A stretch of DNA of 64,000 bases from positions 16,678,395 through 16,742,394 of the forward strand of contig OX439049.1 in assembly GCA_949317995.1 (NCBI GenBank). The letters are read 5' to 3'. The translations under genes and the position numbers were made by a program. The DNA comes from Acholoe squamosa (Eukaryota; Annelida; Polychaeta; Phyllodocida; Polynoidae). Shown here in pieces: positions 3,713-63,686 of the stretch (its first letter is position 1; the number at the start of each line of letters is the position of its first letter). Below the pieces are notes generated by a model. It saw only the letters and a list, made by a program, of their open reading frames with translations, made no database searches and was not told the origin of the DNA.

Positions 3713-4301
3713 CACTTAAAGGGTTAACCAGTCAGTCGTCAGTCATGTAAGTAAACCTATTTCACTTAAAGGGTTAGCCAGTCAGTCGTCAGTCATGTAA
3801 GTAAACCTATTTCACTTAAAGGGTTAGCCAGTCATGTAAGTAAACCTATTTCACTTAAAGGGTTAGCCAGTCAGTCGCCAGTCATGTAAGTAAACCTATT
3901 TCACTTAAAGGGTTAGCCAGTCAGTCGCCAGTCATGTAAGTAAACCTATTTCACTTAAAGGGTTAGCCAGTCAGTCGTCAGTCATGTAAGTAAACCTATT
4001 TCACTTAAAGGGTTAACCAGTCAGTCGCCAGTCATGTAAGTAAACCTATTTCACTTAAAGGGTTAACCAGTCAGTCGCCAGTCATGTAAGTAAACCTATT
4101 TCAATTAAAGGGTTAACCAGTCAGTCGTCAGTCATGTAAGTAAACCTATTTCACTTAAAGGGTTAACCAGTCAGTTGTCAGTCATGTAAGTAAACCTATT
4201 TCACTTAAAGGGTTAACCAGTCAGTCATCAGTCATGTAAGTAAGCCTATTTCACTTAAAGGGTTAACCAGTCAGTCGTCAGTCATGTAAGTAAACCTATT
4301 T
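3713..4301 (+). repeat. 50-bp minisatellite, about 12 copies
   Basis: Tandem array with a 50-bp unit that begins CACTTAAAGGGTTARCCAG and ends GTAAGTAAACCTATTT. Most copies are 95 percent or more alike. One copy near 3815 lacks an internal 10-bp CAGTCGTCAG segment, itself a sub-repeat of the unit. Variants (TTAGCC against TTAACC, CGTCAG against CGCCAG) are grouped along the array, consistent with unequal exchange. There is no coding potential. Confidence 0.95.
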
Positions 4302-36917: not shown

Positions 36918-39900
36918 ATGAGTACTACTCTAGGTGTCCCAGTGTGGGACAGACGTCACAGTGAGGGTGGTGAGGTGGTGCACCTCACTGTGTTCAAGGA
37001 GCTACTCACCAACTCACTGGTACGACTCAAGGACCTGCTCCAAGTGGATGACCTCTGGGCACACCTCAGGGTGCTCAGGGTACTCAGGGAAAACGACGAG
37101 GAACGCATTAGGGTAAGTGTAATAGGACACGTTTCTTATACATCATGCCTACCCTTCAGGGGCAGGGATAAGGCTTAAATAAAACTCAAAGATAAAGGCA
37201 TTGTGATCTTAAATGCACCGTGTCTGATGCACGAATGCAGCTCTAAGAGAGCTGTTTTCCTGAAAACAGAAAATCACAAATGCTTGTCAAATTCAGAGTC
37301 CAAAAAATAATGATAAAACCAATCTGCTTCACTCTTATGAAGTACAGCATTTTATGCGTTCTGCCCATTACATGGATTATTCGTCAGTTTATCAAACACC
37401 CCACTGACGTATCAGTTTAAAGTATTGCACACCTTTCATAACAATAAATCTATGTTCTTACAGTATAATGCTGCGAGATGTGACGCCGTGGAGAGACTGC
37501 TGAACCATATCAGGACCTGTGCCGTCTGGCAGTACCATGCCCTTATGAGGGCCATGGCCCTTACAGGGCAAGGACACCTCATCCCTAAGGGGGGCTTGAA
37601 CCCCCGGGTGTACATGCAAGGTATTCCAGAAAGTCCCGTCAATGGACAGCCGGATAGTCACCAAGCATCACTATCCTCAAATCTACTCAGAGGTGGGTAC
37701 AACATTTGTATCAGTCCTCATCACTGCCTTAACAACCACATTCATGAAGCTGCTCTATTACTTTACACTCTCATTACTGGCAGCCAGGAACAGCATCTGT
37801 CCCACTTCGAACTGGGTTTGGAAATACAGAATGAAAAATCAAAGCAAAATGACAGAAGTAATGAGAAAGAAAGTATGTTAAGCTCACGTTCCTACACTGA
37901 AATTGAGTCTAAACCATTCGGCAGCCTAGAATATTATCATAACAGCTATGTCTATATATGCATATGTGACCAGTCTTATCCACTACATATTGTATAATGT
38001 CTAATATTGGCAATTACAAACTTATCATCAATTTTCATATCCTGTTTTCCTTCAGCAATCCGTGCCCAGTGCCAGGCGTGCAGCAAACACCTGATGAGGG
38101 GACACATGTTCAGTTTGGACCATGATCCTAGTGCTGAACCCATAGACATATCACAGTGTCATATGAATGTCAAGGCCAAACTCAATGGAGGCTCCCAGTA
38201 AGTGTTATGGGTTTTTCAATCTCATGCTTGAGAAAACACCATAAGATACAGTTCATATTACTCATTAGAATCAATGATAGGCCTCAAAAGATATTGATCA
38301 GCATGGGATGGAGAATTTATGGATCTCTTGAAGCTATTTAGTATTGACCAATGGAGTTCTGAATTTCTCATATGAATTTGTGTCTGCTTCCCCAAAATAT
38401 CCTGCCACACATGTCTTGATAATGTAGTTGATTTTTTAAAAAATCAAAATCAGTGTCCAAAGTTACTGAGAGAATAGGTTGATTGCCATATTATAAAGTT
38501 CAATTAAGTACTCAGTGCCACCCTTTTCTCTCACCAGAGCGTTATTGGAGATATCTACAGATGGCATTATGAGCAGTCTACATGACTCAGAGGCTGCTCA
38601 CACTGTCAGGATCTGCGGCCAGCCTGGGGACGGAAAGACCATCTTCATGATGCATATAGCACACTCAGCTAGTGAGGCCTTCCTCAACTCGCAGACACAC
38701 AACCACACATCACCAAGCAGCAGCCATCCCTGGAACACTGTGGTCTTCATCCCAGCCAAGGACATCAGGGGCAGTATAGAGGACACCATCAGGGACCACC
38801 TTTGGTGTAAGGAGGAGGACCTGGACGTCCTGATGGAGCATGTTAGAAGAGGACAGGGTGTGCTTATACTGTTTGATGGAGTGGATGAGCTCAGGGATGA
38901 GAACACCCTGAAGCAGCTACAGGAATATGTGCATCAAAGGCACAAGAGAGGAGGACCTGCAGTGGCAGTGTCAGCAAGAACTGACCTGTGTCCTATTGAT
39001 GTAGGGGACTTTGACAGGTTGCTGGTACTTGGAGGTTTCACAGCTGACCAAGGGGTGGAGTATGTGAAGAAGTATGTCAGCTTGTATGAGCCCTCTAAGG
39101 ATGAGCTGTATTCTCACGTACTAGGCTTTGTTGAAAGGCACAAGACCAAGTTGCACCCTGTGCTCACCAACCCACTCAGACTGAACATATTTTGTACTTT
39201 AGCTGTCAAAGCTGAGCTGGACCTTCAGGATGACGGGGAGTTCAATGTACCAAAGCTTTTTGGACCCCTTGAGAAGTATGTCCTTGCAAGAAAAGGGGTC
39301 AATGAGGTGACAAAAGAACAGTCCCAGAATTTCTACAGATTCTGCATGTTTGGGCTCATGAATAAAATGAGTGAGTTTCCTGAGAAGATGTTGAGCTCTT
39401 TTGGCATTGTGGAAAACTACTATGCATTCCTTGAAAAGTCAGTACGAAGAGACAGTAATGGGTCACTCACATCGTATTTTTCATTCAGTCACACAATGAT
39501 CTACGAGTACTTTGCAAGTCGTTACATTCAAAATCATGAGAACAAAACAGCTCTGATTGTGTCACTGAGTTCTGATAGACAATTCAGAAACATCCAAGAG
39601 ATCGTATTCCAACTGCTTCTGCAGAATGGCCAAATGAAGCTCATTGAAACCATGATTCGCAGCATCTTGATCCTACAGCACAGCGAAACAAAACTAACCA
39701 GGAGCAAAACCCTCTATGATCTGATGCATCTCTCAAAGAGGTTAAAAGAAGCTAACCCTCTTGGAAACATGAAAGATGTGACAGACATATGCCAGAAGAT
39801 TAATGATGCTTTTGACAATAAGGTTGAGAAATTGAGAGATGCAGGCTGGTTTGTAGACTTGGAAACTGACCGTTTTGGGACAGTGGGTCATGTGCTGAAA

Positions 39901-41019
39901 TGCCTCCACACCTGTTCACCCCAACAGCAGAGAGAACTTACCTCCAGAACCATTGGGCGCCTGCTGCCATGTCAATTCAAAGGGTGTGACAGGTATGTAG
40001 AAATAAACCATCTTAAGCATAATCCACATAGGCATAACTACTAAATTTAAAAGTATATTTCCAACAAGCAATTTTATCTTACAGGGTGCATAGTTGCAAG
40101 CATGTGATCTTTTGCCATATAGGACATCTTGATTTATAAATTGAAGGTCATAAGTATTCCTGAATTATTGTATCATTTAAAAGCAATTACACGTATCTTT
40201 ATAAAAATGAGTAGGGTAATAGCAAAGGAGCAAGCAAGAAGCCCATACTCTGTATGCATTGCCTTTAGGCCTACATTTTTATATGTATATGTTATTTGCA
40301 AGAGATAAGTTACAAATGGCTCCTTCCTTAATTTCAGTGGTTCTGGTATGGCCTACACTGTTGGCGACCTAGGATGGGCCAAGGTGAGGAGAGATGGACC
40401 TAACATGGGGATCTCAGCATGGAGCCCTGCTGAGTGCCTGGAGGCATTGAGACAGGACCAGGACAGACACAGCTGGGTCTCAAACAGGAAGCTGCACAGG
40501 GTGGTCATGTCTCTCAACACCTCAACCCTACCCTGGAGGCAGTGCATTGATGATGCCTGGACAGAGGGGGAATGGAACACACTGCTGAGGGAACTCTCTA
40601 AGCAGTGGCCATCAGTTCAAGAACTCAGTATACACCTAGACGAAACCACTCCTCTTTCAGGCCTCCTCTCCTGTCTACTGGACCTGAAGAAAGACACATT
40701 TAACAAGGTTGCCATTGTGCATGGTATGGAGGAGCTACCAGAGCTGCTGTACAAGATGCAGATATTGGCAGCAGGAGAACTGACCTTAAGACTACAGTCC
40801 CCCTACATTGTAGTGCCTGGTGGTCAGAAGGCTGAGGGGGCCAGGCAGCTCAGGGAACAGCTGGAGGAGGTGAGGGGTGCTAACAGGGACAAGGTCATCA
40901 TGTCCCCTTGGTGGTTGACAGAGTCTAGGGTTAGATACAAGTGGCCTGATGATGTGAACCCATTAGTCATGGTACAATCAGCATTACAAAACTGTGTCCT
41001 GGATATGTTACAACACTGA
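36918..41019 (+). CDS. CARD-NACHT immune receptor-like ATPase (NLR-like, no LRR)
   Basis: Five coding exons: 36918-37112, 37464-37692, 38056-38197, 38538-39992 and 40338-41019. They sum to 2703 bp, an exact frame of 900 aa, and all introns are GT/AG. Residues about 15-110 are a helical CARD-like domain split over exons 1 and 2. Residues 142-188 (exon 3) carry a C-x2-C pair followed by His residues and a distant Cys, which I do not recognise. The NACHT follows: Walker A GQPGDGKT at about 216-223, Walker B LILFDGVDEL at about 298-307, a sensor-like AVSARTD, and the NPLRL motif. The last 230-300 residues show no leucine-rich, WD or TPR repeats. By family it should be a cytosolic ATP-dependent oligomerising sensor or adaptor that recruits a CARD partner. 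The ligand is unknown. Start ATG: the first in the frame after the acceptor at 36877. Confidence 0.88.
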
Positions 41020-44750: not shown

Positions 44751-47700
44751 ATGTATGTGACTGTGGTCCTTGTAATATTAGCTACAACACTGCTATATGG
44801 GTGGTACAGGTACGTACATAGTTTGCTTTAATCTTAAAGGGTATAGTTGTTGTTGATTAGAGAAAAGCGCAGTGATACAGTGAATGTGATTTGTATTTAG
44901 TAAAAACAAGACAAAAAAAAAACAACAACAAAAAACAAACAAACAAACTTCCCAAAGCAGCTTTTTCTAATTATGCAAATACATGTATATCTGAGTGTAG
45001 AGTTATGTACTATAATACCACTTTATACTTGTATGTCTTTGCTAGACCTAACCATGACACATGTTCCCTACTGTCATAAATTGTCTACAACTGTGGTCTT
45101 GGCTGTTTCAGATTTAGAAAAGAGAGATTCACAGTTTTCAAGTCCCTGGGAATTAGTGGTCCGGAACCAAATATATTATTTGGGAACCTCGTAGAGATGA
45201 AAGATGTTGTAAGTTAAGAAAAGCCGATAAAGTTCACCATTTAAGAACATTATCAATCCTGAACATTTGTGAGGTTATTCGCAAAGATCATAAATATCTA
45301 ATTTGGTATACATTTACACACTGTTCTTCCTACCCCCCCCCCTTCCCACCCCCATATGATATCGTTAAAATGTACTAAATTCAAGTGGAACTTCCATAGT
45401 CCTTCATTAGTATATATATACTAAGTTTAATCTAGCCATATCATTACATATCGATTACTGAAAATAAGAACTTATTCCCCCGAAAAGGTTACATCAGAAT
45501 AGATAATTGCAGCAATTTCTTTTGTAATAAAACATTATTCTGGATGCAGTCTATTCACCATACAGTTTACATAACGTCTCTCCCACCTGGAGGATGTTTC
45601 ACCTCATAACATACGGGGGCCGTATATGACATGCGGGGGCCGTATCTAAAAAAAACGTTTCTGTTCTATTTTCCGCATTCATTTTTTTCACATACGGAGG
45701 GCCGCATTCATATACGGCTTATTGGGCGTTTCACCTCAAGATGCGGACAACCTGTTTTCCACATGTCTTCCGTATTTTCAGGTTAGAATGTGGAGGGGTC
45801 AGGTACCCCTCCATATGTCACATACGGGGGAAATAAGTAACATGCGGCCTTTTTTAAGCCCGCATCCAATGAATATCTCCTAAGTAGGTCGTGACCTTCG
45901 TTTTCACTCCAAGTCATGTGACCTATGTTTGGCCGTACTACACCAGGGAAAGAAATGCCTGGGTACATCCTGAACACTACTAGGCAGTATTACGAGAGAA
46001 AGGATCCTTTGTCTTTCTACACTGAGAAAAAATTTCTTCAGCGCTACCGTCTTAGTAAAGAGGTAGCCCGAATTCTCATCAAAAACTATGTCGCTACGAA
46101 AAAAAAGAAGGTCCTGAGGGGCAAGCATGCCGTTCCACATAGGCTTAAGGTAAGGGAGTCCATCCTTCATTTATCCTTTTATTTTCATATTTTTTCCTTA
46201 CTGTACCTCTTTTGACTTTATTATGGCATGTTAAAACAATATTCTTTTCTTTGCTTTCTTCAGTTCCTGATTGCCCTAAGGTATTTCGCCACTGGAGCCA
46301 GCTACAACTCCATAGGAGACATTCACGGCGTCTCCAAATCCACTGTGTGTAGGTCTGTAGAGAAGGTGACTGACTTTTTCCATGAACACCTACAAGAGTA
46401 TGTCCATTGGCCACACTCCCGGGAGGAAAAGAACAGCAAGGCGATGCTCTTCTATCGGAAACACAGAATGCCCAAGCTGTTCGGACTCATAGATGGGACA
46501 CATGTACCTATACAGTGTCCGCGAGGGGTAGTGGCAGACGAAAATCAATTCTTTTGTTACAAAGGATACTACAGCATAAATACCATGGTAAATTACTTTT
46601 CCTAATATATTTCTAAGAACCAGGATATCTTATGTACATTTTTTTTCATTGAATTTCTTTCATTGAATTTCTTTCTTGATATGTCTATCAGTTTATACAT
46701 ATATATATATTAACATTTTTGTCCCTTTTTTACTCCTCCCAGATTGTCTGCGACTTTGAGTACCTCATCACACACGTAGATGCCAGTAATCCTGGGTCTC
46801 AGAACGACATCTACTGCCTCAACGGGTCTGACATCAAAATCTTGGGAGAGAGAAAACAGTTCGGGGATATTACCTCTTGGGAGATTCCGGGTAAGTCATT
46901 TATATATTTTTTGGCCAAACTTAGCTGAACATAACTCCTTTCGGAATACATCCTTATGGAAAAAATATATATGAAATCCATATACAATAACCAAATATTT
47001 TCCCTTCAGATATCCTCTCACTGACTACCTCCTCACCCCTGTCCGTGTGGAGACAACGAACGCTGATGTGGCATACAACAAGTGGCACCGAAAGACTAGG
47101 AGTCGGGTAGAGAGGACTATAGGCCAGTTGAAGCAGCGTTGGCGGTAAGTCATTTATTTATTTATTTTCCTACATTTATCCTTTATATCTTTTTTCCTGT
47201 CAAAACTATCATCCTCTTTAAGCAGTCACTTGGTACAATTTTTAATTTTTCCCATTTTGTCTCTCTCTTTGTTTTCAGTTGTCTGGACAGCAGCGGGGGA
47301 TATCTGGCCCATCCTCCTACCACAGCAGGAAAAGTCATCGAGTCCTGTGTGGCACTACATAACTGCGCCAAGGTAGCACGCAATCCCCTATTGAAGGACA
47401 GTATGGAAAAGGACTCGTTCAAGCAAAGATTCCCACGCATCACCCAGCCAGAGAATGTCTCCTGTAAGCCCCCGGCTAATTTTGAGAACCTGCGGAAGGG
47501 TTTCATCCAAGATAACTTCAATCCCCGCTGAATAAGTTAAATGAAATCAATTTGACTAAATAGTGTAATTCTGTTATGTGATATTAAGACAATTAGAAGG
47601 ACAAGAAAAAAATTCTGATGGCAAACTTTTATTCTAATGACTTGAAGAAAACAAACATGGGTTACATAACCATGTCATGTAATGAATAAAGCTAACATGC

Positions 47701-50700
47701 AAAATTTAATGAATAAAATTTAAAATAACCTCTTTTTTTTATTTCCACATCCTGTGCTGAAATGTTTTTCTTTGCCTAGCATGTATAGAGAATAATCTGT
47801 TACTTAGAATGCACCATGTATTATATTAATTCTGAGAACTTCCATAACAAGAAACAGACTTTTTTAAAACATGTCATGAAGCTGAAACAAAAATGCCTAT
47901 TTGGCATCAATATATCTTGATACATACATGTATTCATCCTGAACTTAAGTCTTTGTTCCCTAGTTTGCAACGAGTACTATAATGTATATGGGACATCAAA
48001 AATCAGTTTATCTTTTGTATTCCAGTATCTTTGCTCATGTACCATTTCACTCAACTTAACATAAAAAATGTCTGTCTTTGCTAAATGGTATACATGACGA
48101 GCGTACATAGGAAATTTTCAAAAGAGGCATCCATTTACCTTAAAGTGAAAATAACTCGAACCATGCATATAGATGTATCATGTCTGCACAACGAATACAA
48201 GTTTTCATTTAGTCCTGAAGGAAGACTCCAAAGTTAAAGTCATGAACTTAAATATGCCTTGCTTTAAACTTTTCTTTTTATCTTCGACCATATACGATTC
48301 TATTATAGATTTCTGTCTTTCATTTTCTACCTTTACTGTACAATTCTATGAAATGATGTTGTCTAGGTGGAAACTTCGAACGTGATATCTTCAAATTGTA
48401 TATTACATTCTCCTAACTAAGGTAACATACTTGAAGCTAAGGCATTCAAAATAGCCTAACAATAAAATATGATATAACTTTGAACTACAGCACCGTTTTT
48501 AATTTCTTATATATCACACAAATGAAATTAGTCCTTTTTGATAGGTTTCTTGTCACGACGGGACCTCCTTAAAACCAGCTCAGGATTGTCGTCGCATAAG
48601 TTCTCCTCCCGGACAAATACCACTTCTTCATTTGACATGACATTGTAGGCTGGCAATGAATTAGAATCTGGGTCTATTGCTTCAATAGCTGGAAAAAAGG
48701 AGAAGGTGAAAACATCTGTAACCGCTATAAATCGGCCACACAGGAAATATAATCACATGTTTCTTTATCATGTCATTTTTTTATAAGGATATAACATCAT
48801 GCATTAAGGGGGGTACCTTTGGGCGTCTTAAACTTCAGGCTTCAAGAACAACTGCTAAAACCTGTAGCATGTTTGATAAATATCATATATCCTGGTTTGT
48901 TACTTATCAGAAGAAGTTCATTAGAAAAGATAATGCACATATTAGGCCTATACCTGATGCAGGGACGATTAACGGGCCTTCACCTCCCTGTACATTTTGA
49001 CATGGAACAAAGACAGCTGAACCGTGTACAACCTCCGTGTCGGGTGGAATGGCAATCGTTGCACCCTGCATGGCTTGGACGTCTGTGTGTATCTCCCCTT
49101 CACCAGTGTTCAGCTCCTCTGTTTTAAAGAGGAATACATATTAATACACATAGTTCTTATTTATTTCAAGTAAATACAAAGATTAACTAAACATTATGGA
49201 AACAGAAAACCCATGGAGAACCAAATTTGATACACAACGAATGAAATTCTATAGTTCAAAAGATGAATGACATATCAATGGTACAGAAAAGAATACAGGT
49301 GGAATTAATTTCAGTTGAAATATATTTAGGAACACAACATTTTTACCTTGGCTGTCGGACACTTCCATGGCCGCTATGTCCTTTGCGTCCAAAAAAAATA
49401 GGGACCACGTGCTGAACCTTCTGATGGGTCGTTGTGAGTTAATTTAACTGTCATCTTATCAGGCAAACATTCTTCCTTGTCAGATTTAACGGATATATTG
49501 TCTTCCTGGACATTGGGGGAAACAGGTTTGTCTCCTACTGTCTCACCCTCATCTGCACATGGAGGTAGGTCAGCTTTTGGATTTTTCTCCGGGACGGGTG
49601 GTAGGCCAGGTTGGGGTATTTGATCCCCATGTGGAGGTTCATCCTCTTGTGAAATTATCTGATTGTCCGTCGGGGTACATGTTGAAATATCTTTAGTTGA
49701 TTTTGCGTTTAACTGAGCAGCAAAGAACACAGACATCTTAGTCATTTCTTTCCAAACTTTCTCCGCCTCTTTTTGGGCTGACAGTTGAAGGTTCCGGTTT
49801 TCCTGAATCTCCTGATTTAACTTCAAGTTTTGCAAATGTAACTGTTTCTGTGCATCTAAAAAACCTTTTTGATTTTCCAGGATGACCGATAGACTACTTG
49901 ATAGCTTTGTGGCACTTTCAGTCATACCTAACAATCCAGTGGCCAAACAGTCTTGTCCTTTCTGCATTCTTTTGAATGTGGCATGTATTGCAGTACCTAC
50001 CAGATTTATTCCTTCCACAAATTCTGACTGGTTATTTGACATTGTCTCATTTGTAGCCTTTATGCGGGCTATGTGCTGACGTTCGAACGCTACTGCAGTA
50101 TTTCTAGTCTCCTCCAGTTTCTCATGCAGGTCGTTGGTCATTGCCTGAATGGCTTCCAGGCACTGACGCCTACATTTCTCGGCTTGTTCACAAGTTCTCG
50201 CCATGTGGGAAGACATTTTCTCAGCCATTTCCCGTATGCCCTCTGCGTAGCTGGTCTGGGTATCTTTGATTTTAGTGGACGTGGTGTCCATATGCTCATT
50301 TATCCTCTGACTGATGTCTTTTAAACCATTAACATAATCGCTCTGGAACTTAGCTATTTCTTTCATTATCTTATCCTCTTCCCTTGGTTTAGAAAATAGT
50401 TCTTTCTTCTTGGAGGCAGAAGCCCGTTGGATACGGGATAAACCTGAGATGTTAACAACGTTCATAGCGGAAGGAGAACTGAGAGGTGTACTGTTAGAAG
50501 GCTGATATGATTCAGTCTCCATTTCTTCTGACCCCATTATTTCTGCATAGCATTCCTCTTCCTCCTCGAGCAACTTGGAGAAGGAGGGGGCATGTCGGGG
50601 CTTTTTATGGGTTTGCTCTTGTATACCTTCGTCATCTGCAGTCCTTTTTTTATTTTGGGGAATGTGGGAGGTCATTCTGCGAAAAGGCGATATATTTGTG

Positions 50701-51485
50701 AAAGATTTTTTAGGTATATCGTTGACCCGACTTCTGCTAGAAGTAGCCTGCACCCGACTGGCAGAGGCTTGGGGTTGGGACGTATGTGGCTGACTAGCTT
50801 GGGGTTTAGACGTATGTCCCTGACTTGAACCGGTTTGGGGTTGAGACTTACATTGCATTTGAGAGGTATATGCTTTGGTCCTGCATTCAGCAGGTTGAGC
50901 TGTTCCTACTTCGGATGTTGCTTCAGAAGCATTTTCCTCTGAAGTCAAAGTTTTCAAAGCCCTCCTTAGCATGGAAATCTTTTCTGTGCGTTGAGGGTCT
51001 GAGGCAAAAATAAGTGACGCAGCAGCCCTCTTTTGTGGATCAGCATCATTAATAAGGTTGTTAAATCCTTTGCAGATGTTTAACATGTCAGTCCGTGATA
51101 TGCGGGGTTCAAGAGGAACCTTTTCCTGTATGTCTTCGACTGTCACAGGATCGTTGTCATCCTCAGGTATATCCTGCTCTGGTAGGGTTTTGTGGTAATC
51201 GTCCTCAGGTACCTCATCTGGATCTTCCTCGTACAGTTCTCTTTCGTCCTGGGAGCCTGGTGGGGGGTGTGAAGAGCTCTCGTCATCCCCTGAAAAATTT
51301 GAATAGATCACAACATACGAGAACAGTCGCTGAAAAGATTTGTATTAACTTCATGTAAGGACACATAGATATATCTACTTTATAGTAGGTATATGTTCAC
51401 CATATATATATATGTTAAGGTATACATTTCTATTTCTGTATCAAATTTCTTGAAAAATAAAGTGATAGTGGTCCACATATGTATG

Positions 51486-51538
<53 letters not shown>

Positions 51539-54500
51539 TTTTATACATATATATGTACATATATATATATATATATATATATGTACATACACCGTCTATA
51601 TATATATATATATTTATATGTATATGGAAAAATGGAAAAGTATATACCTTCCTCGAGTAGATCCCCCTCCCTTACTGCAGCCATAGCTGAACTCGGCATT
51701 GGGATGTCAGCATAATTTGGTTTTTCTGAACGGTTTGGGTCATAGCAGGACTTCAGGTCCGACCGAGGACCACCATCTAATCCAGGGGGCTTCAGTCCGG
51801 GTATTCCTGGAACCAAAATAAGATTTATATATATCTGTTCCATACAATATATCGTCATATGTAGGTGAAGGGTATTGTTGGCAATGCCTGAACATGAGCA
51901 GGGTGTCGCACTACTGCATACATAAGTACAGCATAGTGATGGATAACAGATGTCGCATATATGGTATTATGTGGAATATAGATGAAATAAAGACAGATGT
52001 ATAGACGGAAATTCAGTTCTCACCTAGCACAACATCTTGGCCTGCATAGTCACATGCCTGCTGCTCCAAAGAGGTCAGATAATCCTCCTCGTCACGCTGA
52101 CCACTCCCGCTTTTATACTTAGAGTCTATCACCTGTCTCTAAAAAAAAGGTGGAAAGGTACACATAACAGACAATACATCTCTCTGAAGATTTTTCCGAA
52201 ACATTATTCTTTAAATAACATAATTCATTATTTTCAGAGATACTAACAAATCACAGATATATAGAGCATAATGATACAGTAGAATCTAAAAGGGACAGGG
52301 TATTCCTACCTTTTTCTTAGCCTTTTGAACAAAATACCCAAGCTTGTCCTGACACTGCTCACGTGTCCTATGCCTTCCTCCATTAGAATTAACATAGTCT
52401 GAAATATAAGAAGGTGAACTTACATGTTAAAGATATCACCTTTACGTCAACAGATTTGTTATATTTCTACCAAAAAAGGAAAGGCAAATTATGTATTCTA
52501 CCAATGTCAGACGACATGCATATCAGACTGAACATAAGAGGAATATATAAAAAGAAACAAATTTTAAAGGAATATAACCTCACCTCTTAGTTCCTCCCAC
52601 GCCATTTTCTTTAGTTCCTTTCCGTCAGAGCTATGTTTGAAGCGCCCTTTAAGTACTGGCTTAAGATTGTTAGCACCCTTCAACAAAGAATCAAGCTCGT
52701 CTTCCCTCCAGTGTTCTCCTTTCTTAGGGGTAGGGACCCCCCCTTTTGTGGCACTTTTAGGCATGGAACCACTAACAGAAGCTGCAGGAAGACTTACTCC
52801 AGGAGACCTACCACGTCCCCTTCGATTACTTTGGTTCAGAGATGATCTACCGCGTCCTGATATGTCAGGAGAAGGTGACCCACGTCCCCTCCCCCGGCCA
52901 GAAGTAGTGGATCCTCTAGCCCTGCCTCGTGATCTTTTGTTACCTCTACCTCTAGGAACAGAGGATTCAGGGACCGGAAAATATGTGGGGTCTAGGTTTT
53001 CAGAGTCTTTTTTTCGTTGACTGTAGGAGCTGGGTTTGGAAGAAGAAAAGGATGGATGGGATGAGCTTGGAGGCTTTCCCTTTTGCCTCTTCATGCTGAG
53101 ATTCTGCCGCTTAAGCAAGCCGCACATGTATGCAATTGCTTGCTCTCCAGCATCGCCCGGGTAGTTCTCAGGTCGCTCTTCGTCGTCGTTCAACTCGTCG
53201 TCCTCGTACATAGTTTCTACTCCCTCATCTTCATCCTCGTCTTTGTCAGATTCCTGGAAAAGAAAAAAGAAATAAAGTTTTATAGACATATTGTAATATA
53301 GTATAAGGGAAAATAAAATATAGTCTGAGAGCTGAAGAACTATTTGTTATTCTACTTTAAATATATACTTCAAAAAGAGAAGAGGAATATGTTTACAAAA
53401 ATAAATTTAGTTTTTTTCAATGCCATAAGAGAAAAGAGAGAAAAAATGTATTCAGGGAGTAATTTTAGACTCATACCTCTAAGTCAGGGTCACTTTCTTG
53501 ACCCGTAAGCCTTCTGTTCTCTCGGAGGAGGGCTTTAAGATTCGTCACATTCTCCATTAACTCATTGAAATTCTGAAAATTAGAATAAAAAGAAGGGATA
53601 AACAAAAAAAAAAGCTCTATATGAAGCCAATGGAACTTACTTTGTATTTTAACGTACACCGGCCATATGCCTTTGAAGGGACAGCATTAGAAAATTTCTT
53701 TATTCTTAATAAAAATTTGAAGAAGTTATCTTTATCAATTTGGACATCGCAGGAAAAACAAAAGGGGGGCATATTTGGAATAAGATTAAAGCTTACGGTG
53801 CAAGAAAAGGTAAAAACATGGCAACATGTACAACCTAGAAAATTACCTGATGGACATTGCTTAACATCATGCAAAATTTAATATTTTGTTACTTAGATGA
53901 CAGTAAGAGTCAAATTAGGCTGGGTAGTGGAAAGGGGGGTATATTTCTAAGAACAGGGAGATCCCTTCTTCCTTTTATTGAAAGGATTAAGTCACGACGT
54001 GAACAACAGAAAGGGGGGAAGGCGTCTGCTTGAACCAAAAAACACTTTCAGAAGGAGGGAGCGTCGAGAGGGGACCGAAGTTTTGAATGAAAAACGTGAA
54101 GACATGCCTTGTTTTTGACCTCATAAAGACCACAAAGAAAAGAGGTATCATATTTAAGACAAGAAAAAGAGAGAACTTTAAGTATCTCACCTTAGTGGGT
54201 TTTTTCTTCCCCATCTTAGTATTGTTTGTCGGCGGTTTGATGAGCGATAAAGGAGAAAGCGGAAGTTGCGTTATGACGTCATACGGGGAAACCGGAAAGG
54301 GGTTCCCCCGTTCTCATAAGTTGAACGTGGCTTTTACGAAAAAAAAAGCTTCGCGGAGCCAACATACGGAGGGTCCGCATGTGTATACGGACTGTCCGTA
54401 TGTGGGGAGCCGTATGTTAAAATAAAAGGCCACATTTAGAGATAAAAGTCCGTATCCTGTGTCTCACATACGGACAGGACACGGCCACCTTTGAGAAACA

Positions 54501-57500
54501 CTTTTTGAGATAAATATTTTTTCTCCCACATGACATCCGCATGTGGAGGCCGTATATGTATAATTCAATACCTATGAGGTGAAACATCCTCCAAGAACAT
54601 AATTGAGGCAGTGTTAATCTCTCCTTTTTAGGGCCAACATAAAAAATGGCAGGACTGGACAGAGGCTTATGGCACAACGTTTGGGTAAGATGAATGCGAT
54701 GCTGGATATTATACAAGCTAATAATTATCACTCATTATGTATTCCTAACCAATTACTGTAATATCCCGCGTATAAGGTGCAGCCCGCGTATAAGGCGCAC
54801 CTAGAGTTTTGGAAAATTGTCAAAAAAATGAAAAATTCATAACTTTGGTTCTACTGAATGAATTTTCAAAATTCAAAGACCTATGTGTAACTTGAGCCCC
54901 ATGGACCCCCCTGGGCCCCCATATATCCTATTATGGCTAAGGGGGCATGTGACATATCACTATAAAGGTATTGGAGCCCTCCTTGTGGATGCAATTAGCA
55001 CTAAAACCCCCCATATAAGACGCACCTTATACGCAGGAGATTACGGTACATGTACCATAATTTGTCAATTTTCATCGGTGTCTTTGTTGTCAATGTCACA
55101 TAACTTCTACATTTTTGATGGTTGTATTTTGCCACACTGAAAAGATGTTGTGGCAGTGATCTAGTACTCAGGTGAAAGATAGACTTTGTTTGCGCATATA
55201 TATGTGACACGTTTGTACCTACTGAATGGCCATCTTCAGCAGGTATTGTTTCTATTATGAATGTACATAGCTGATCTTTCCATTCCAGGTATTATGAGGG
55301 TCCTAAACCCATCTTGGTCACCAGTGATGTCGACATGATCAAACAGATAATGATCAAACAGTTCAACAAGTTTCACTCCAGGAAGGTGCAACTGAGGCAT
55401 TCATAGCCATAGTTATAGACAATCCTAGAATTCACAGTAGAAAAAAAGAACAAGAACATACTTGCCAAAGTTTATTTAATTCTGGTCCAGAAAATCAGGG
55501 TACAGTCCCATGAGCTTATTGATGTTGGTCAAAGTAATTTCAGTCATCTTGCATACACCTAATGCATTTAGGTATAATGCGTATAGTTCATGGATCCTTT
55601 CCAAAAGGTTTTTGAAAAAAAACCCACATTAAATGGATATATAGGTTGTTAAGTTAGCAAACAAAAGAATTCGAATTGAATTATCTCTCCTTTGCAGCCT
55701 TTCCCCCTAGCTGACCCCCATGACAAGTTCGTTGACATGTTTACTGCAAGAGGGCAGCACTGGAAGCGGATCCGATCTATCAGCAGTCCCAGCTTTAGCA
55801 CCAAGCGTATGAAGGAGGTGCGTTTGTTGAAAGAAGATAGTGTATTTTAAAAGCTATTACAGTAAAAGAATTCTCACATAGTTGGTGGAACATGTGATAT
55901 AGAGGAAAGTAGCACTTTTGTTAGATACATAGGATCCTTGATGTGCTTTTAATAAGAATGAATAAGTACACATCCTGGAGAAGCTCCTGAATTGCTGTTA
56001 AAATAAGTTGATACCATGGCAATAACCTCTGAATACATAATTCATTTACTGAAAGATGTCACCACTGATCCACACGTCCTTGACTGAGCTCCTGGGTCTT
56101 TTTAAGCAACACGCTGATAAAGGGGAGGCATTTGATATTTATGAGTAAGAAATATTCATTTTATTCCCTCTCATATTGTACAATACAGCATTTACAGATG
56201 CTTAAAGGAAAATTAGATGAATGGCAATAAGAAAAAGATTGGTGGATGGCCAACAGTCCAAGCTTGGCAATGCACAGGGAAACTTTACATGGGACATCAG
56301 CCTATATAGTTATGGAAAGAAAAAATGTTGGTAGAGTATGTGCAATGAAAAAGAGGTATTTTTGCATCGTACCGATACCATCAAATATATCAATATATCA
56401 ATTTAAAAGACAAGGAGATGAGCAAAAAAAAAGAAAAAAAGGAAATATGTAATTCAATATTTCACCTATAAACTAAGGAAACATTCACTAATCAGTTTTC
56501 ATCTTAAATCTCCCTTCATATTTCAGTGAATTTCAGAGACTGACGTTAACAGTTATTGCCAATGTGGCATTTGGTATTGAGATAAACGCCCTCACCAACC
56601 CAGACCACATCTTCCTCAGACAGACCCGTAAGATCTTTGAGGTCACTGAGGAGAAGAACCGTAGCTGGACTATGACATTCTTTATCCCCATAGCAGGTAT
56701 GGTATTCACGGGGATAAATTACATTATTGTCTAAATGGCATAGATCAATTTTAAGGTCACTGAAAAAAAGAAACAAACAACGTTGTTTCTCATCAGCCCA
56801 GGTAGCAAACACGGTGTGGCCTGAGTCTGGGCCAGAGCGGGCTCCTGATGTGGGCCACACTGGGTTAACACAGTGGGCACCCGAAGGGGTTTGTCCTGAG
56901 CAAAAATAGTAAAGGTGAACGATGATCAGTTTGAGCTGACCGTTTCTTCACGAGCGTGTCCGGCCCGTTCGGGCTGGACACGCGAGTGAAGAAACAGGAA
57001 GCTCAAACTGGTCAGAGTTCATCTTTACATTTATGTCAAGGTGTTTGGGTTGATAATTAATCGATATTTCATCAATATAATCCATAATTAACTCTTATTT
57101 ACCCATCGTCTTCGCGAAATCCTGACCGCCGCCATTTTGAATGTTTACGTTTCAAAAATGCTGCGCATGCGCGATAGACCTATGACATCATCGTGTGGAT
57201 TTGGCGCCGGTTATTCAACGCAGGGGTGCAATACGCGGTCTCAGTGCTTTCTCTATGGAACTACGATATTCACCTTGACATAAGGGTCTCAGCCACACTG
57301 GGCTAACGATTCGGGCACAGATCTGTTTGAAAGTGGGCTCACCGATTTGGGCTCAAAGTGAGTTCAACATGGGTTTTGGTGTGGCCCAAAGTGGACTGCC
57401 TGATTTGCCAAAAAATTAGTGGTGACATGTTAAAAATTCTTTTTGAGAAATTCATCCAATATTTATTCTTTTATTCCCCCCCCCCAAAAGTCAATGAAAA

Positions 57501-60500
57501 CAAATCCTTGAGCTAATCCACCCCCCATCACCAAAGCAGTAAATACTAAATGTAATATCTACCTGAGTGGCAGAGCAGAACCATCCATTTGAATCAAACT
57601 CATTCAGCCAACACAAGGCACTTTGATTCCTTAAGGTGACACTCTGGCCTCAATCTTCCCCCACTACTTCCCTATGTAGGAGTAGAGAAGAGAGCCTTCA
57701 AGTTCATAATGACTGTACCTTTGCATATCTGCTCTTGTTCCAGGTTCAGTGCAATTGAAATCGTGTTGCCATTCCACTACTACTCAGACGACCTTGATTT
57801 GCACTTTTGACTAGAAACAGTTCAGTTGTCCTATGTCTAAAGGAAATAAGTTTTGTATGGGTAGTAGAATTCTGCCTGGAGTGCTGTGAAACCACTTTGT
57901 AGTGAGTCTTCCATTGACTGTCCTACAGGGACAGGGGGTATTTTTGGTTTCTCAATTGCCTCTATATATAGTCCTCTTATGCCCGGCCAGGTGTGGGGCC
58001 TGTTTGCCCCCACACCACAAATACACCTTGCAAGCTAGTATTAAGAAAGACATGAAGCTGTTATTTCCAGGACTAGTCAGTGTTGCATTTTACATGAAAT
58101 ATCTGGATCTCTACTATGAACCTACCTGTGCATTAATGGTATAGGGAAAGTGAGACTACCTATCTCCTACAGCAGTGGTGGAGGGAGGGGAGGGGGAGGG
58201 CAGGGCAGGGTGAGAGGAGGGCAGGGTAGGTGAGGACAGGTGAGGGCAGGGGATGGCAGGGCAGGGTAGGATGAAAGGAGGGCAGGGTGAGAGGAGGGCA
58301 GGGCAGGGTAGGACAGGTGAGGGCAGGGGATGGCAGGGCAGGGTAGGATGAAAGGAGGGCAGGGTGAGAGGAGGGCAGGGCAGGGTAGGGCAGGGCAGGG
58401 TGAGAGCAGGGCAGGGCAGGGCAGGGCAGGTGAGCAAAGGGGGTAGCAGGGCAGGGCAGGGTGAGAGCAGGGCAGATCAGGGCAGGGTGAGAGAAGGGTA
58501 GGGCAGGGTGAGCATAGGGTGAGAGCAGGACAGGTGAGGGCAGGGGATGACAGGGCAGGGTGGGGGAGGGCAAGGGAAGACAGGAAAGGGGAGGACAGGA
58601 TTAGAGAAGGGCAGGGCAGGGCAGGGTGAGAGGGGGAAAGGGCAGGGCAGGTTGAGGGGAATGAGAAGGAGATGGAAAGGGTAGGGGATGGATAGGGGAG
58701 GGACGAACAAAAAAGGGAGAGGGAAGGGAAACACTCATCACAGAGTTCAGAACACTTCAGAAGATGAGGCTGCCGTGTCCAAACCCACTCTCACCCCAGA
58801 CTGAGAAGACTTTATGCAGCTAAGCACCCATCTTGGGATGCCCATTTTGAAACCATCCTGGGCCCACTGTGGTTGCCTATTTTAAAGTTGACCAGTGCCC
58901 AAATCGGTCAGCCCAATGTGGCCCAGACCGTATGCTGAGGACAAAACCCGTTGGGAGCCCAACGGTTTCAAGTCGGTTTGCCCGATTTGGGCTGCCCTGT
59001 GTGGCCCTGACTGGAAACCCAGCATCTGCCGAACTTAAAACCCATGTACTCAATACTGCGTGCTTTGAACCACCTTATCCTGGGTTAAACCAATTTGGCC
59101 CCGAGTGGGCATGCTACATGGGAGCCGAAAATAAACATTATTTGAGCTTATTCTTATCTAGGAAGTTCTGAGAATCAAACTTAGTATGAAATCAAAAGGT
59201 ATTTCTTTACATATGGTATCATATTAAAGTTTATAGTACCAGGAGTGCAGCTGTCAATTATAACCATTTTTCACATTTCGAAAATGTCACTAATAAGTTT
59301 TTCCTACCTGGCTCTTCATTGTTTTTATGGCTTGGTTATGAAAAACAGTTTCTTGAGTGTCCTTGCTACTAAAACCATTATCTTAACATACTATGGGACA
59401 AAACCTAGATGCCTTTGAATACTGTACATGTATATACTGGAAGTCAATCTTTCCATATGACGAATAAAAACTTTGTGATTGTGATATCAATTAGATATTT
59501 CTGTTACTTTGAATCACATAGTGTGTTTCCCTGAGGTCTTCCACGAAGTCTGGCACTATATGCAACCCTTCTTCACTCTACCCAAGAACTGGTTTTTTGA
59601 CTCGGCAAAAATGATTTTACTCTCAAGGATGGAAACAAAGGTAAGAAAAAGCTGAATTCATTTAAAATAATCAGATCTACTCCATGTATTACGTTGTACA
59701 TTTATTTTGGGTTAAACAGGCTACCAATAAAGGCTAGATGGATCATCTGCATCATTCTCCCTAGGGTAATTTCTTGATTTCAGACTTTAGTTCTCATTAT
59801 ACAATACAGTTTTGACCATTTTGCAGTCTGACCGTGTAGACTTTGTCCAGTTAATGTTGGATGCTAGATTGGGTGACACTCCGATTGACCTCACCATGAC
59901 AGTAGAAGACAAGGAAACTGAAGAGGACATGTCAAATAATACTAACATATCAAAAGAGAATGGCACACAGGAGAATGGGACCTCAAAGGTAAATGGAGCA
60001 AAGGTCCAGAGGCAGCAGAGTATGGACGAAAGCAAAACAGAGACCAAGAACAACGCAAAGCGGCTTTCAATGGAGGTATGAATGCACCCTTTTCAATTAT
60101 GAAATGTTTGACAAATGCTGCTTTCATATTGGTCTAAAAAAAAGCTCGGTTACCAATTTAGACATCACTATACGATCAGCTCTTACATGAGACCGGCACT
60201 TATGCACGATATAGGTAATATTCTTTTTAATACTTCTGTTCCCAACCGCTGATTTGAAACTGTCTGTTATTTGAGACCCGGGTGAATATAATATGGTTAG
60301 GATATACATGTACAGTAAAGACAGCCCTGATCCAAAGGTCCTGGCTTTCTGTGGAGGTGTAAACTGCACTGTGTTATTTAAATGTCTATAATACAACAGG
60401 ATATTCCGTCTCACTCTCAGTCTCAGTCAGCACTGTTCCTGCTGGCCGGGTAGGAGACTACCATGTGTAATACAAATGTCTATAACACTACAGGAGATGC

Positions 60501-63500
60501 AGTCTCAGTCAGCACTGTTCCTGCTGGCTGGGTATGAGACTACCATGTGTAATACAAATGTCTATAACACTACAGGAGTTGCAGTCTCAGTCAGCACTGT
60601 TCCTGCTGGCTGGGTATGAGACTACCATGTGTAATACAAATGTCTATAACACTACAGGAGATGCAGTCTCAGTCAGCACTGTTCCTGCTGGCTGGGTATG
60701 AGACTACCATGTGTAATACAAATGTCTATAACACTACAGGAGATGCAGTCTCAGTCAGCACTGTTCCTGCTGGCTGGGTAGGAGACTACCATGTGTAATA
60801 CAAATGTCTATAGCACTACAGGAGATGCAGTCTCAGTCAGCACTGTTCCTGCTGGCTGGGTATGAGACTACCATGTGTAATACAAATGTCTATAACACTA
60901 CAGGAGATGCAGTCTCAGTCAGCACTGTTCCTGCTGGCTGGGTATGAGACTACCATGTGTAATACAAATGTATATAACACTACAGGAGTTGCAGTCTCAG
61001 TCAGCACTGTTCCTGCTGGCTGGGTATGAGACTACCATGTGTAATACAAATGTCTATAATACTACAGGAGAAGCAGTCTCAGTCAGCACTGTTCCTGCTG
61101 GCTGGGTATGAGACTACCATGTGTAATACAAATGTCTATAATACTACAGGAGATGCAGTCTCAGTCAGCACTGTTCCTGCTGGCTGGGTATGAGACTACG
61201 AGTACAGCCATGGCCTTCTTGTCATACCAACTGGCCATGCACCCTGACATACAGGAGAAGCTCATAGCTGAGGTCGATGAACACTTCCCAGACAAGGTAG
61301 GTCATGCCCTGTCACTATTGAGCCATGACTAAAAGTCATATCACTGCATCCTGTGTCCAAGGCTACCTATAACAATCTGACTTTGTTGATTCTGAATCAG
61401 AACTCTGACAGGATATATCAATTTATTCTAGGAACATAACTTTATAGTATACTGATGTGAAACCTAAACTGCAAGATGCTCCAGTTAATTCCATCGGTTG
61501 AGGCATATAGCAATTGTGCTACACAGGCCAAAGAGGTGAATCCCGGTCCTATCCCTCTTAACGAAACCCGTGTCTTTAAAACTACCAGAAGCAATACAAA
61601 CAAACAAAGAAGTACTTTGGGTTTTCAGACATGTGAACCTGACTACTCCTCAGTGCAGAAGTTAGCCTACATGGACATGGTTCTGAGTGAGGTACTCCGT
61701 ATGTACCCTATTGCTGCCATGTAAGTATGGACACACCGACATAAAATGTTTTAAATCTGTATACCTTTTATTATTATGGGGCTTAGTGTAAATGCCATTT
61801 TTATGTATTTTTGAATGATTTTTCTTTTCAATGCAAAATCTTACACTGAATGTTGAAAGATCATCTTATAATACACATTCTGCACATTTGTGAACTTAAA
61901 TCTCCCCATGATGTTACCATGTGCTTTATGTTGATTCATTGCTGATATGATATTCTTTCAATGCTGAAATATCTCAGTTATTCAATGTTTACACATCAAT
62001 CCTTAATCAACAATATAATTGCAGTTTTGATTCAGTAGTAAGAATGTCAGTGTTGAGAGGAATGTAATATGTCTATACTTAGGATTAGATGTTGAAATAG
62101 GTGATGGTTGACAAGAGTGAAACTGTATCATCAAAGCAGTATTGACAGTATATTACAGTTAAGGACCTTTACGTGCCCAGAATTATTTGATGATTTTCCC
62201 TATATTTCACATATACATTACCCCAGTGATAAAGACCATGTATAATTCTGAACAGGTCTTTGATGTGGAATTCACAATACATACCTGATTCTGTTTTACT
62301 TCAACTTTCCGTTAAGTGAGAAATTTCTGACTGAGTGTGGTTACCATAGCAACAAAAATGTTCCTTTAGTTGTTATTCACTAGTATGATTATGATCTCCT
62401 CAGTGCTGTGCTGCTCAAATCTCATTAAGTGTGAGATTTACAAAACTACAATGTATATTCAACTAGTTCTGCCAGTGTGCACTACCAGGGTCCAAATGTC
62501 TTGGTCACGGTTCATGAAATCATGAAATTTTGATATGACCAATTCCTATGAATAGAATAGTTGTAAGGTTGGCAAGTCTATCAAAGGTGTGGTAAAAGGG
62601 GACATATGATCCAGCATCACCTTCCTATCATACTATATCTTGTCTCCTTGAGGGATTCTGTTCCAAAGAGTCACATGTATGACAACTAATTTTCAGGTTT
62701 TGACTCACTGTGTCTGAGGTAATGGAGATACAGTCAAATGGATGGTCTCATTGGAATAAGGGGGTTATGGCCGTTCTAAAGAGGGTATAACTTTGCATAT
62801 TGGAGCAATAGAAGTTCCTGGATGACAATTTGCTTCAATATGCATGTATTTAAGCCCAAAACCGCGCATTTAAGCGTGCTTGGGCACCTAAGGGTTAAAT
62901 TTGGTATATTTATTTTGTAGTGCCACAACCCGGATAGCTACAGAGGATATTACAGTGTCTGGTGTAGAGATAAAGAAGGACATGATTATTCAGGCCAACA
63001 TGGAGGCTGTGCACTTCAACCCAGAATACTGGGGACCAGAGGACCCAAAGGAATTTGTACCAGAAAGGTGCGTTATTGGGTGGGGTGACCTTCACCCCTT
63101 TGTGCCATTTTTTTTACATTCGTATTTACATTAACTATTGCACTAGATTACATGTAGGCCTGTAGTTATGTTACTGAATTGATCCGATGGGCTCATATCA
63201 CACACAGGATACTGACTATAGCAATACGACGTTAGACTTCAATACTCAAAGGTTTACTCAATATCACTAAGGGTGGTGGGTATAGGTCTAATTACTATCA
63301 CATACGTGTTTAGTATTGCAGATAACTTCAATATTCTAACAACATGTATTATGAATAAGCGTACTATATTTTAATCTACCATTACTGTTTTGATACTTTA
63401 CTTAGTTTGAGAGCCTTTTCTAAAACTACAAATAACCCTTTTCGACAGATTTCTCCCAGAGAGGAAGGCCAACCGACACCCTTGTGCATTTCTCGCATTT

Positions 63501-63686
63501 GGAGTAGGGCCCAGAAATTGTGTTGGACTGAGGTTTGCATTCCTGGAGGCCAAGCTAACTGCAGTGCGCTTGCTCAAGAACTTTACCATCGAACGTTGTG
63601 AACAAACACCTGAAAAACTCCCTGTTAATACAGTGGCTATTGTGGCACCCTCTAATGGCGTCTGGATAAAGCTTGTCAGCCGCTGA
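44751..63686 (+). CDS. Cytochrome P450, CYP3-clan-like, with a 9-kb transposon in intron 2
   Basis: Thirteen exons: 44751-44809, 45112-45208, 54632-54684, 55289-55385, 55698-55817, 56056-56144, 56527-56696, 59522-59640, 59827-60075, 61150-61296, 61629-61720, 62921-63067 and 63449-63686. They sum to 1677 bp, an exact 558-aa frame, and every junction is GT/AG. It is a haem mono-oxygenase anchored in the ER. The N-terminal helix ([17 protein letters not shown]) is followed by LGISGPEP. The I-helix AGYETT is at about 363-368, K-helix ExxR (EVLR) at 421-424, the PERF motif in FVPERF, and the haem loop [10 protein letters not shown] with Cys504. The layout resembles CYP3A/thromboxane-synthase-like enzymes. 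It is longer than the usual 500 aa because exon 9 carries a charged, Asn/Lys-rich insert of some 55 residues before the I-helix. The substrate cannot be inferred. Intron 2 holds a Harbinger element and intron 9 a splice-site array. Confidence 0.92.
45925..47531 (+). pseudogene. Harbinger DDE nuclease (HARBI1-like), one-base frameshift
   Basis: Five exons: 45925-46149, 46264-46587, 46743-46890, 47010-47144 and 47279-47531, all GT/AG. The protein would be about 361 aa, normal for the family. The start could be the ATG at 45925 or, with better context, the one at 45955. Exon 2 encodes a helix-turn-helix ([16 protein letters not shown]) and the first catalytic Asp in [10 protein letters not shown]. 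Exon 3 has the second Asp in [12 protein letters not shown]. Exon 4 has the catalytic Glu in [10 protein letters not shown]. The exon lengths total 1085 bp, one short of a multiple of three. The frame breaks in exon 3 near 46863-46866 (GGGG), between QF and the conserved LLGDSG. Both sides are otherwise open, so the gene is either very recently inactivated or carries a sequence error. Role: cuts the element's ends together with the Myb-like partner. Confidence 0.88.
47532..48527. other. Gap between the convergent transposon genes
   Basis: AT-rich DNA with several AATAAA words on plus near 47680-47720, which suit a poly(A) site for the nuclease gene. No coding exon is seen. Confidence 0.5.
48528..54214 (-). 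pseudogene. Harbinger Myb/SANT-like DNA-binding partner, very long, one-base frameshift
   Basis: Nine exons on the minus strand: 54191-54214 (MGKKKPTK), 53477-53572, 52584-53253, 52310-52398, 52024-52138, 51648-51806, 49347-51289, 48954-49118 and 48528-48688. All introns are GT/AG. The total is 3422 bp, one short of a full frame of about 1140 aa. Exon 3 has an acidic start, an RG/SR-rich stretch ([11 protein letters not shown]) and the beginning of the trihelix domain ([11 protein letters not shown]), which continues in exon 4 ([12 protein letters not shown]). Exon 7 adds some 640 residues: acidic, Ser/Gln-rich, then a long coiled coil. The frame breaks at a T8 run (plus 49391-49398); with one more T it runs on into exons 8 and 9 to TAA. 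By family it binds the element's ends and brings the nuclease into the nucleus. At 1140 aa it is far longer than the few-hundred-residue partners known for this family. Confidence 0.82.
51497..51612. repeat. (AT)n microsatellite in an intron of the Myb-like gene
   Basis: Two AT tracts of about 40 and 20 bp plus a third at 51598-51612, with ATGTACAT interruptions. They lie between exons 6 and 7 of the transposon's Myb-like gene. Tyr/Ile-rich frames across them are artefacts. Confidence 0.9.
54754..55048. mobile_element. CCGTAATCTCCCGCG MITE, copy 2, in P450 intron 3
   Basis: The left end (TA-CTGTAATATCCCGCGTATA) and right end (inverse of CCGTAATCTCCTGCGTATAA) match the family at 8643-8937, with TA at both borders. 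The length is similar (295 against 295 bp), and inner words such as GCGCACCTAGAGTTTTGG are shared. It begins 70 bp after exon 3. Confidence 0.82.
56800..59120. repeat. P450 intron 7 repeat content: GTGGCCC words and a hairpin
   Basis: 56800-56890, 57290-57410 and 58855-59110 carry degenerate copies of words such as GGGCCACACTGGG, CCGATTTGGGCT and GTGGCCC in both orientations. 56909-57027 is a 119-bp imperfect palindrome with arms containing AGTTTGAGCTGACCGTTTCTT and AAGAAACAGGAAGCTCAAACT and a GC-rich centre. None of it is coding. The three GTGGCCC blocks may be the ends and middle of one decayed element that brackets the minisatellite at 58165-58735. Confidence 0.55.
58165..58735. repeat. 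G-rich minisatellite in P450 intron 7
   Basis: About 570 bp of GGGCAGGGCAGGGTGAGAGGA-type units. Higher-order copies of roughly 85-90 bp are visible (58215-58300 and 58305-58390 are nearly identical). The plus strand is a purine-rich run with many GGG triplets. Proline-rich frames on the minus strand are artefacts of the repeat. Confidence 0.93.
60380..61203 (+). repeat. Ten-copy 82-bp tandem repeat of the P450 exon-10 splice acceptor
   Basis: GCACTGTTCCTGCTGGC recurs at 60430, 60512, 60594 and so on every 82 bp to 61168, ten times without drift. Each unit contains about 30 bp of intron end (AATGTCTATAACACTACAG) and the first 53 or so bases of exon 10 coding for the AGYETT helix. Only the tenth unit continues into the remaining exon (TCGAGT.. 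replaced here by ACGAGTACAGCC). Since 82 is not a multiple of three, reading from an earlier acceptor into the next unit hits TGA or TAA, so only the last acceptor yields the enzyme. Unit differences are few (GAGATGCAG, GAGTTGCAG, GAGAAGCAG; GTATGAG, GTAGGAG). Confidence 0.95.
61721..62920. other. P450 intron 11
   Basis: A 1.2-kb intron between the ExxR exon and the exon before the haem loop. AT-rich, no internal exon or repeat family recognised. Confidence 0.6.

Follow-up and report, generated by a model that had tools for sequence, protein, structure and literature searches.

A probable mirage-type minisatellite across a 3' splice border of a CYP3-like cytochrome P450 gene in an apparently non-lancelet host

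Minisatellite-like repeats of intron-exon borders were described by Ebner and others for the globin genes of amphioxus and termed "mirages" (PMC3087553). In one of these globin mirages, the repeated stretch joins the 3' end of an intron to the 5' part of the exon that follows. Haplotypes with 6 and with 3 units are described, the interior is homogenised while the boundary is not, and regular splicing, as judged by reverse transcription PCR, is not affected (PMC3087553). For amphioxus arrays of such layout, regular splicing is reported as undisturbed (PMC3087553, PMC3902484). Arrays in Adh3 are cited as somatically unstable (PMC3087553), and PGBD5 and TnC have been added to the amphioxus genes with border arrays (PMC3902484). 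In human genes, tandem repeats at exon-intron boundaries may give rise to novel introns and alternative transcripts (PMC2812944), while minisatellites within an intron have been described for metallothionein genes of an annelid (PMC12783039). Here, we describe an array in a stretch of 64,000 bases (G000:C15:16678395-16742394, referred to as the window), which repeats the acceptor border of intron 9 in a CYP3-like cytochrome P450 gene. This array is probably a mirage-type minisatellite as known from amphioxus, residing in a host that apparently lies outside the reported group.

The host gene matches Pfam family PF00067 with an E value of 8.2e-65, its best PDB match is P450 3A4 and its best homologue is P0002 (55%). 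An exon map was obtained by tblastn with P0002, counting matches on the forward strand only; these matches span 44751-63683, the one to the first exon being weak (E 3.4). Exon borders were then drawn from homology and AG/GT signals. The parts of the gene needed in the following are:

44751..63686, forward strand: CYP3-like cytochrome P450 gene with the array (PF00067, PDB match to P450 3A4, tblastn exon map)
59827..60075, forward strand: exon 9, 249 bp, phase 0, ending in RLSME directly before the donor GTATGA (reading frame, AG/GT borders, tblastn with P0002)
60076..61149, forward strand: intron 9, the 3' part of which is the array (exon borders; three of six paralogues checked end the intron at the same codon)
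60370..60461, forward strand: diverged edge copy, comprising an intron end, AG at 60398-60399 and an exon-like part with 12 extra bases and an in-frame TAG
60462..61149, forward strand: core of the array, with alternating 32-bp intron-like and 50-bp exon-like parts (Tandem Repeats Finder, unit alignment, probe search)
just before 60494, 60576, 60658, 60740, 60822, 60904, 60986 and 61068, forward strand: eight decoy acceptors, each of these positions being the start of one core unit
61118..61149, forward strand: intron-like part of the last unit; its final two letters, 61148-61149, are the genuine acceptor AG (the acceptors of three paralogues lie at this codon position too)
61150..61296, forward strand: genuine exon (exon 10), 147 bp or 49 codons, encoding AGYETT of the I-helix; over its first 50 bp it is identical to the unit consensus

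The array is real and comprises about nine head-to-tail copies. Tandem Repeats Finder reported a tandem array of period 82 at 60418-61199 with 9.5 copies and 97% matches, and a 25-bp probe taken from the intron end was found at nine places with 0-1 mismatch, compared with none in 100 shuffles. Each unit combines about 32 bp of intron end, AG included, with the initial 50 bp of exon 10, which bears out the original prediction that the unit spans the 3' splice site and the first part of the I-helix exon. Read in register after the AG, eight 82-bp core units extend from 60494 to 61149, followed by the genuine exon at 61150. The same prediction had counted ten exact copies, nine of them as upstream acceptors. 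Its array stands while its exactness does not, since the core units agree pairwise at 78-82 of 82 positions (0-4 differences) and only 3 of the 28 pairs are identical. Likewise, the border is preceded by eight clean decoys and one diverged decoy instead of nine alike. In the 82-bp register, the leftmost copy matches the other eight at 74-76 of 82 positions, and aligned from its own AG it displays the 12 extra bases in its exon-like part. At the opposite edge, the genuine exon contributes the final 50-bp piece of the array; in contrast to the 5' edge copy it has not diverged and matches the unit consensus perfectly. Three units (60740, 60904 and 61068) carry private variants, and a further two variants are each common to only two units (60576 and 60986; 60986 and 61068). 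Exact unit patterns gave no matches in viral_contigs or genome_contigs.

Compared with the amphioxus mirages (Adh3, BflGb6, BflGb9, PGBD5, TnC), the likeness lies in a tandem repeat across an exon-intron border which copies a splice signal: the 82-bp unit holds about 32 bp of intron and 50 bp of exon, and AG is kept in all nine upstream copies. The layout is that of BflGb6, which repeats the 3' intron end and the 5' part of exon 2 and also resembles the present array in having inner units alike and a diverged edge. A homogenised interior with an excluded edge is thus seen here at the 5' side, while the 3' edge is not diverged. Unit length differs, with 82 bp here and 150-160 bp in BflGb6, 157 bp in BflGb9, 10-72 bp in Adh3 and 60 and 108 bp in PGBD5 (PMC3087553, PMC3902484). 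Moreover, the mirage hosts are lancelets whereas the present host is probably an annelid. The human boundary repeats share with this array that a repeat meets a splice border and that gene structure can change, but they may stay in transcripts or form introns (PMC2812944), whereas here every decoy that is read through leads to a stop. Among the papers listed in searches of a literature collection that lacks most subscription papers, none was recognised as describing a mirage array in an annelid.

The position of the genuine border can be judged from the paralogues of the gene. The genome searched comprises 1,481,437,319 bases in 63 contigs; the whole-genome DNA search scores best candidates only, so that repeat counts are lower bounds. 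With 60400-61300 (901 bp) as query, the whole region was matched, among the best candidates, only at its own place, and three other matches cover essentially the exon alone. A search with the exon 10 peptide gave 55 places, including the window's own, and the border was inspected at six of the other 54, all within the top 12 matches. At three of these (L025, L026 and L028) the intron stops directly ahead of the same codon, its acceptor is rich in pyrimidines and the border carries no array, while at the other three (L011, L029 and L030) there is no intron and the border is read through; for L028-L030 this applies to stretches of only 621-741 bases, from which arrays farther off would escape. 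Since three of six paralogues share the intron at this codon, 61149/61150 is identified as the ancestral, genuine acceptor, and since their border is without an array, the latter arose in this gene. The idea that the array created the intron was rejected on the same grounds, and an intron absent before the duplication is hence not what is seen here. In this respect the locus differs from cases in which introns were gained as proto-splice sites duplicated in tandem (PMC2891723), with which it shares a duplication that copies splice signals: here, the intron predates the array. As an observation apart, the close paralogues L011, L029 and L030 contain open frames of 540, 233 and 389 residues, and one of 542 residues lies at another place, on contig C13; together with the missing intron, these frames point to retrocopies or to a loss of the intron.

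All nine upstream acceptors keep their AG, and reading through from any of them leads to a premature stop 13-46 codons on, just as originally predicted. It had also been proposed that each of the nine starts with AGYETT. This motif is encoded by only seven, as the copies at 60412 and 60740 carry GGG-TAG instead (the stop of the edge copy being counted from 60412, four codons inside the exon-like part and in frame with its start at 60400). Nonsense codons in two of nine upstream copies imply that no coding role maintains the copies. All splice-site scores given here come from consensus scoring with frequencies that were not fitted. On this scale the genuine acceptor reaches 5.55 and the upstream acceptors other than the nearest decoy 3.46-5.10, while eight further acceptors inferred for the host gene lie at 5.53-11.43. 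The acceptors of the array are therefore weak in comparison with the others of the gene.

We regard it as likely that the array is a splicing-neutral, length-unstable mirage minisatellite which is removed as intron. A tandem duplication would have happened to straddle the 3' splice site, and growth to about nine copies may have followed by unequal exchange or gene conversion, presumably leaving the array older at the intron side and younger or homogenised at the exon side. The pre-mRNA would most likely join exon 9 to the last acceptor at 61149/61150, because only this one gives a short exon, a good donor (GTAGGT at 61297) and an open frame. The remaining copies would be taken out as intron. 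Any misspliced product would run into a stop codon, with degradation as its probable fate. It is reasonable to assume that homogenisation was recent and that length is likely to vary. Several points, however, weigh against this interpretation. The nearest decoy scores 5.55 and thus exactly as the genuine acceptor, so that sequence alone cannot tell which of the two is used, and as all nine upstream AGs are kept, the last acceptor has no advantage of its own over them. Both accurate splicing and neutrality are presumed here from the sequence of one assembly. The 50 bp of the genuine exon equal the consensus, which implies that the array may exchange sequence with the working exon; such exchange is not free of consequence, and the 3' edge, in contrast to the 5' edge, does not look excluded from homogenisation. 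Finally, human boundary repeats are often accompanied by alternative transcripts (PMC2812944).

The age of the array can be gauged from its intron side, where a further feature was distinguished:

60260..60369, forward strand: probable decayed in-register copies of the unit, forming the older end of the array (alignment scores against shuffles and random pieces)

In an anchored alignment, 60260-60369 scored 29; the best of 300 dinucleotide shuffles reached 20, and the best of 200 random pieces of the window 21.5. The unanchored alignment gave 38, with 1000 shuffles yielding at most 35; with other gap costs its support is weaker, the score being reached by 1 of 300 shuffles for 60250-60367 and by 3 of 300 for 60076-60367. 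A wrong-register control put the exact anchor in 7th place among the 82 phases, and the claim of decayed copies hence rests on the shuffle and random-piece controls. Three of the six phases ahead or level lie at most 2 bases from the anchor and three 10-12 bases away, the latter possibly reflecting the 12-bp indel of the edge copy. Further left, at 60076-60259, no unit copies above chance were found (304 of 500 shuffles were equal or better). Judged from these alignments, the array probably extends in decayed, in-register form as far as 60260, and is in that case probably older than its core suggests.

How readily such an array could meet a splice border by accident was estimated from 17 loci of 10 kb taken in 5-Mb steps (16 on contig C4 and one on C7; 170,000 bases). 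Arrays with a period of 20-500 and at least 3 copies numbered 15 and covered 2.6% of these loci; two stricter ones (period 40-200, at least 90% matches) covered 0.4%. At such a density, small as the sample is, many arrays should touch splice borders by accident, less those selected away, and no function is needed to explain the present one. The window itself holds further arrays: 12 copies of a 50-bp unit with 93% matches at 3713-4301, the consensus of which contains the perfect-looking donor motif GTAAGT, and a purine-rich array of GGGCA type at 58193-58626 in the same P450 gene, within the intron preceding the exon at about 59.5 kb.

An alternative is that the array acts as a splicing rheostat, whereby decoys divert part of the pre-mRNA into stop frames, the diverted transcripts are degraded, and the number of copies determines how much functional P450 results. 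The original prediction had likewise inferred that acceptor choice would set the amount of enzyme; the sequence gives no support to such a regulatory effect. It fits this proposal, which we consider rather unlikely, that every upstream acceptor retains its AG and, if used, runs into a stop within the coding sequence, and that the nearest decoy and the genuine acceptor have the same score. Precedents point the same way: repeats at human boundaries can cause alternative splicing and create novel introns (PMC2812944), and a minisatellite of C. elegans is over-represented near regions of alternative splicing (PMC4039745). Yet the extra nonsense changes in two of nine upstream copies and the decayed-looking left end are what would be expected without constraint, amphioxus arrays are reported as not disturbing splicing (PMC3087553, PMC3902484), and three paralogues with the same intron manage with a border free of any array. 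That copy number sets the amount of functional P450, varying between individuals and perhaps between cells, is quite unlikely. If it were true, a minisatellite would exert control on a detoxification-type enzyme.

It is considerably less probable that the array is an assembly error, with another number of copies in the true genome. Arrays of near-identical 82-bp units are difficult to assemble, and three of the core units are identical, so that collapse or expansion of these is conceivable. Among the amphioxus arrays, one was apparently assembled aberrantly in the draft and the copy numbers of PGBD5 differed between two genome displays (PMC3087553, PMC3902484). Against this stand the private and pairwise-shared variants, which together with the edge copy and the decayed copies imply a history that simple stutter would not make.

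Each unit could, in principle, also provide a donor. The original prediction had named GTGTAA for this purpose, a candidate that was rejected at 0.9 bits compared with 7.2-11.1 bits for five inferred real donors of the host gene. A better one, at 4.4 bits, is GTATGA following TGG:

60532..60537, forward strand: donor-like GTATGA of the first core unit; present in 7 of 8 core units, with GTAGGA in the unit at 60740

Among the GT sites of the window, its score, as computed for GGGTATGA, lies at the 88.5th percentile, and its intronic letters GTATGA are those of the exon 9 donor. Together with the unit acceptor it bounds a pseudo-exon of 38 nucleotides; the frame from exon 9 to exon 10 is open with the nearest 3 or 6 pseudo-exons and closed with 1, 2, 4, 5, 7 or 8. 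That sets of three such units (114 nucleotides) are included in frame as a cassette of 38 residues before the I-helix is very improbable despite the open frame with 3 or 6 units and the letters shared with exon 9, as the donor is far below the real ones (4.4 against 7.2-11.1), the insert would sit just before the catalytic I-helix, and none of the four homologues inspected (P0002-P0005) contains it.

Regarding the host, the mitochondrial contig of 15,641 bp carries 12 recognised protein genes on one strand with transfer RNAs (tRNAs) between them, in the order COX1, COX2, COX3, ND6, COB, ATP6, ND5, ND4L, ND4, ribosomal RNAs (rRNAs), ND1, ND3, ND2. Genes were named by eye from translations, ATP8 was not identified, and the places of the rRNAs were taken from gaps. 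This order equals what we take to be the annelid ground pattern. Among the named proteins in the best 120 of 910 P450 matches, many of the 120 being without a name, there is no lancelet. A tree of the host gene and its relatives, 46 P450s in all, was built by a quick method with a midpoint root. It places the host gene in a clade of 11 with otherwise unnamed members, next to sequences from nemerteans, brachiopods and annelids and away from the named sequences of deuterostomes. From the presumed mitochondrial pattern and the P450 tree, the host is probably an annelid and not a lancelet. An amphioxus origin of the window, which the known mirages had made a natural first guess, was rejected because the protein matches, the tree and the mitochondrial order all oppose it. 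If so, border-spanning minisatellites with redundant acceptors are no peculiarity of lancelets and may arise wherever minisatellites are dense. The locus further constitutes a natural test of how the spliceosome chooses among nearly identical 3' splice sites, with the array-free paralogues of the same genome as controls. On the mitochondrial contig, a long alternating M-Y translation (ATGTAT-type repeat; L006:4440-4860) lies in an apparently non-coding part.

Elsewhere in the window, neither the Rfam scan at the gathering threshold nor the tRNA scan with the bacterial code returned anything, and an open reading frame of 656 residues at 49374-51344 found no homologue among 7992 candidates scored. 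A piece of a DDE-type transposase lies at 46216-46605 within a P450 intron of about 9.4 kb, matching HTH_Tnp_4 and DDE_Tnp_4, both below the curated cut-offs. Finally, an open frame of 515 residues at 38497-40044 encodes a NACHT domain (E 2.5e-9), its homologues being 10 unnamed proteins with 33-42% identity among 7993 candidates scored.

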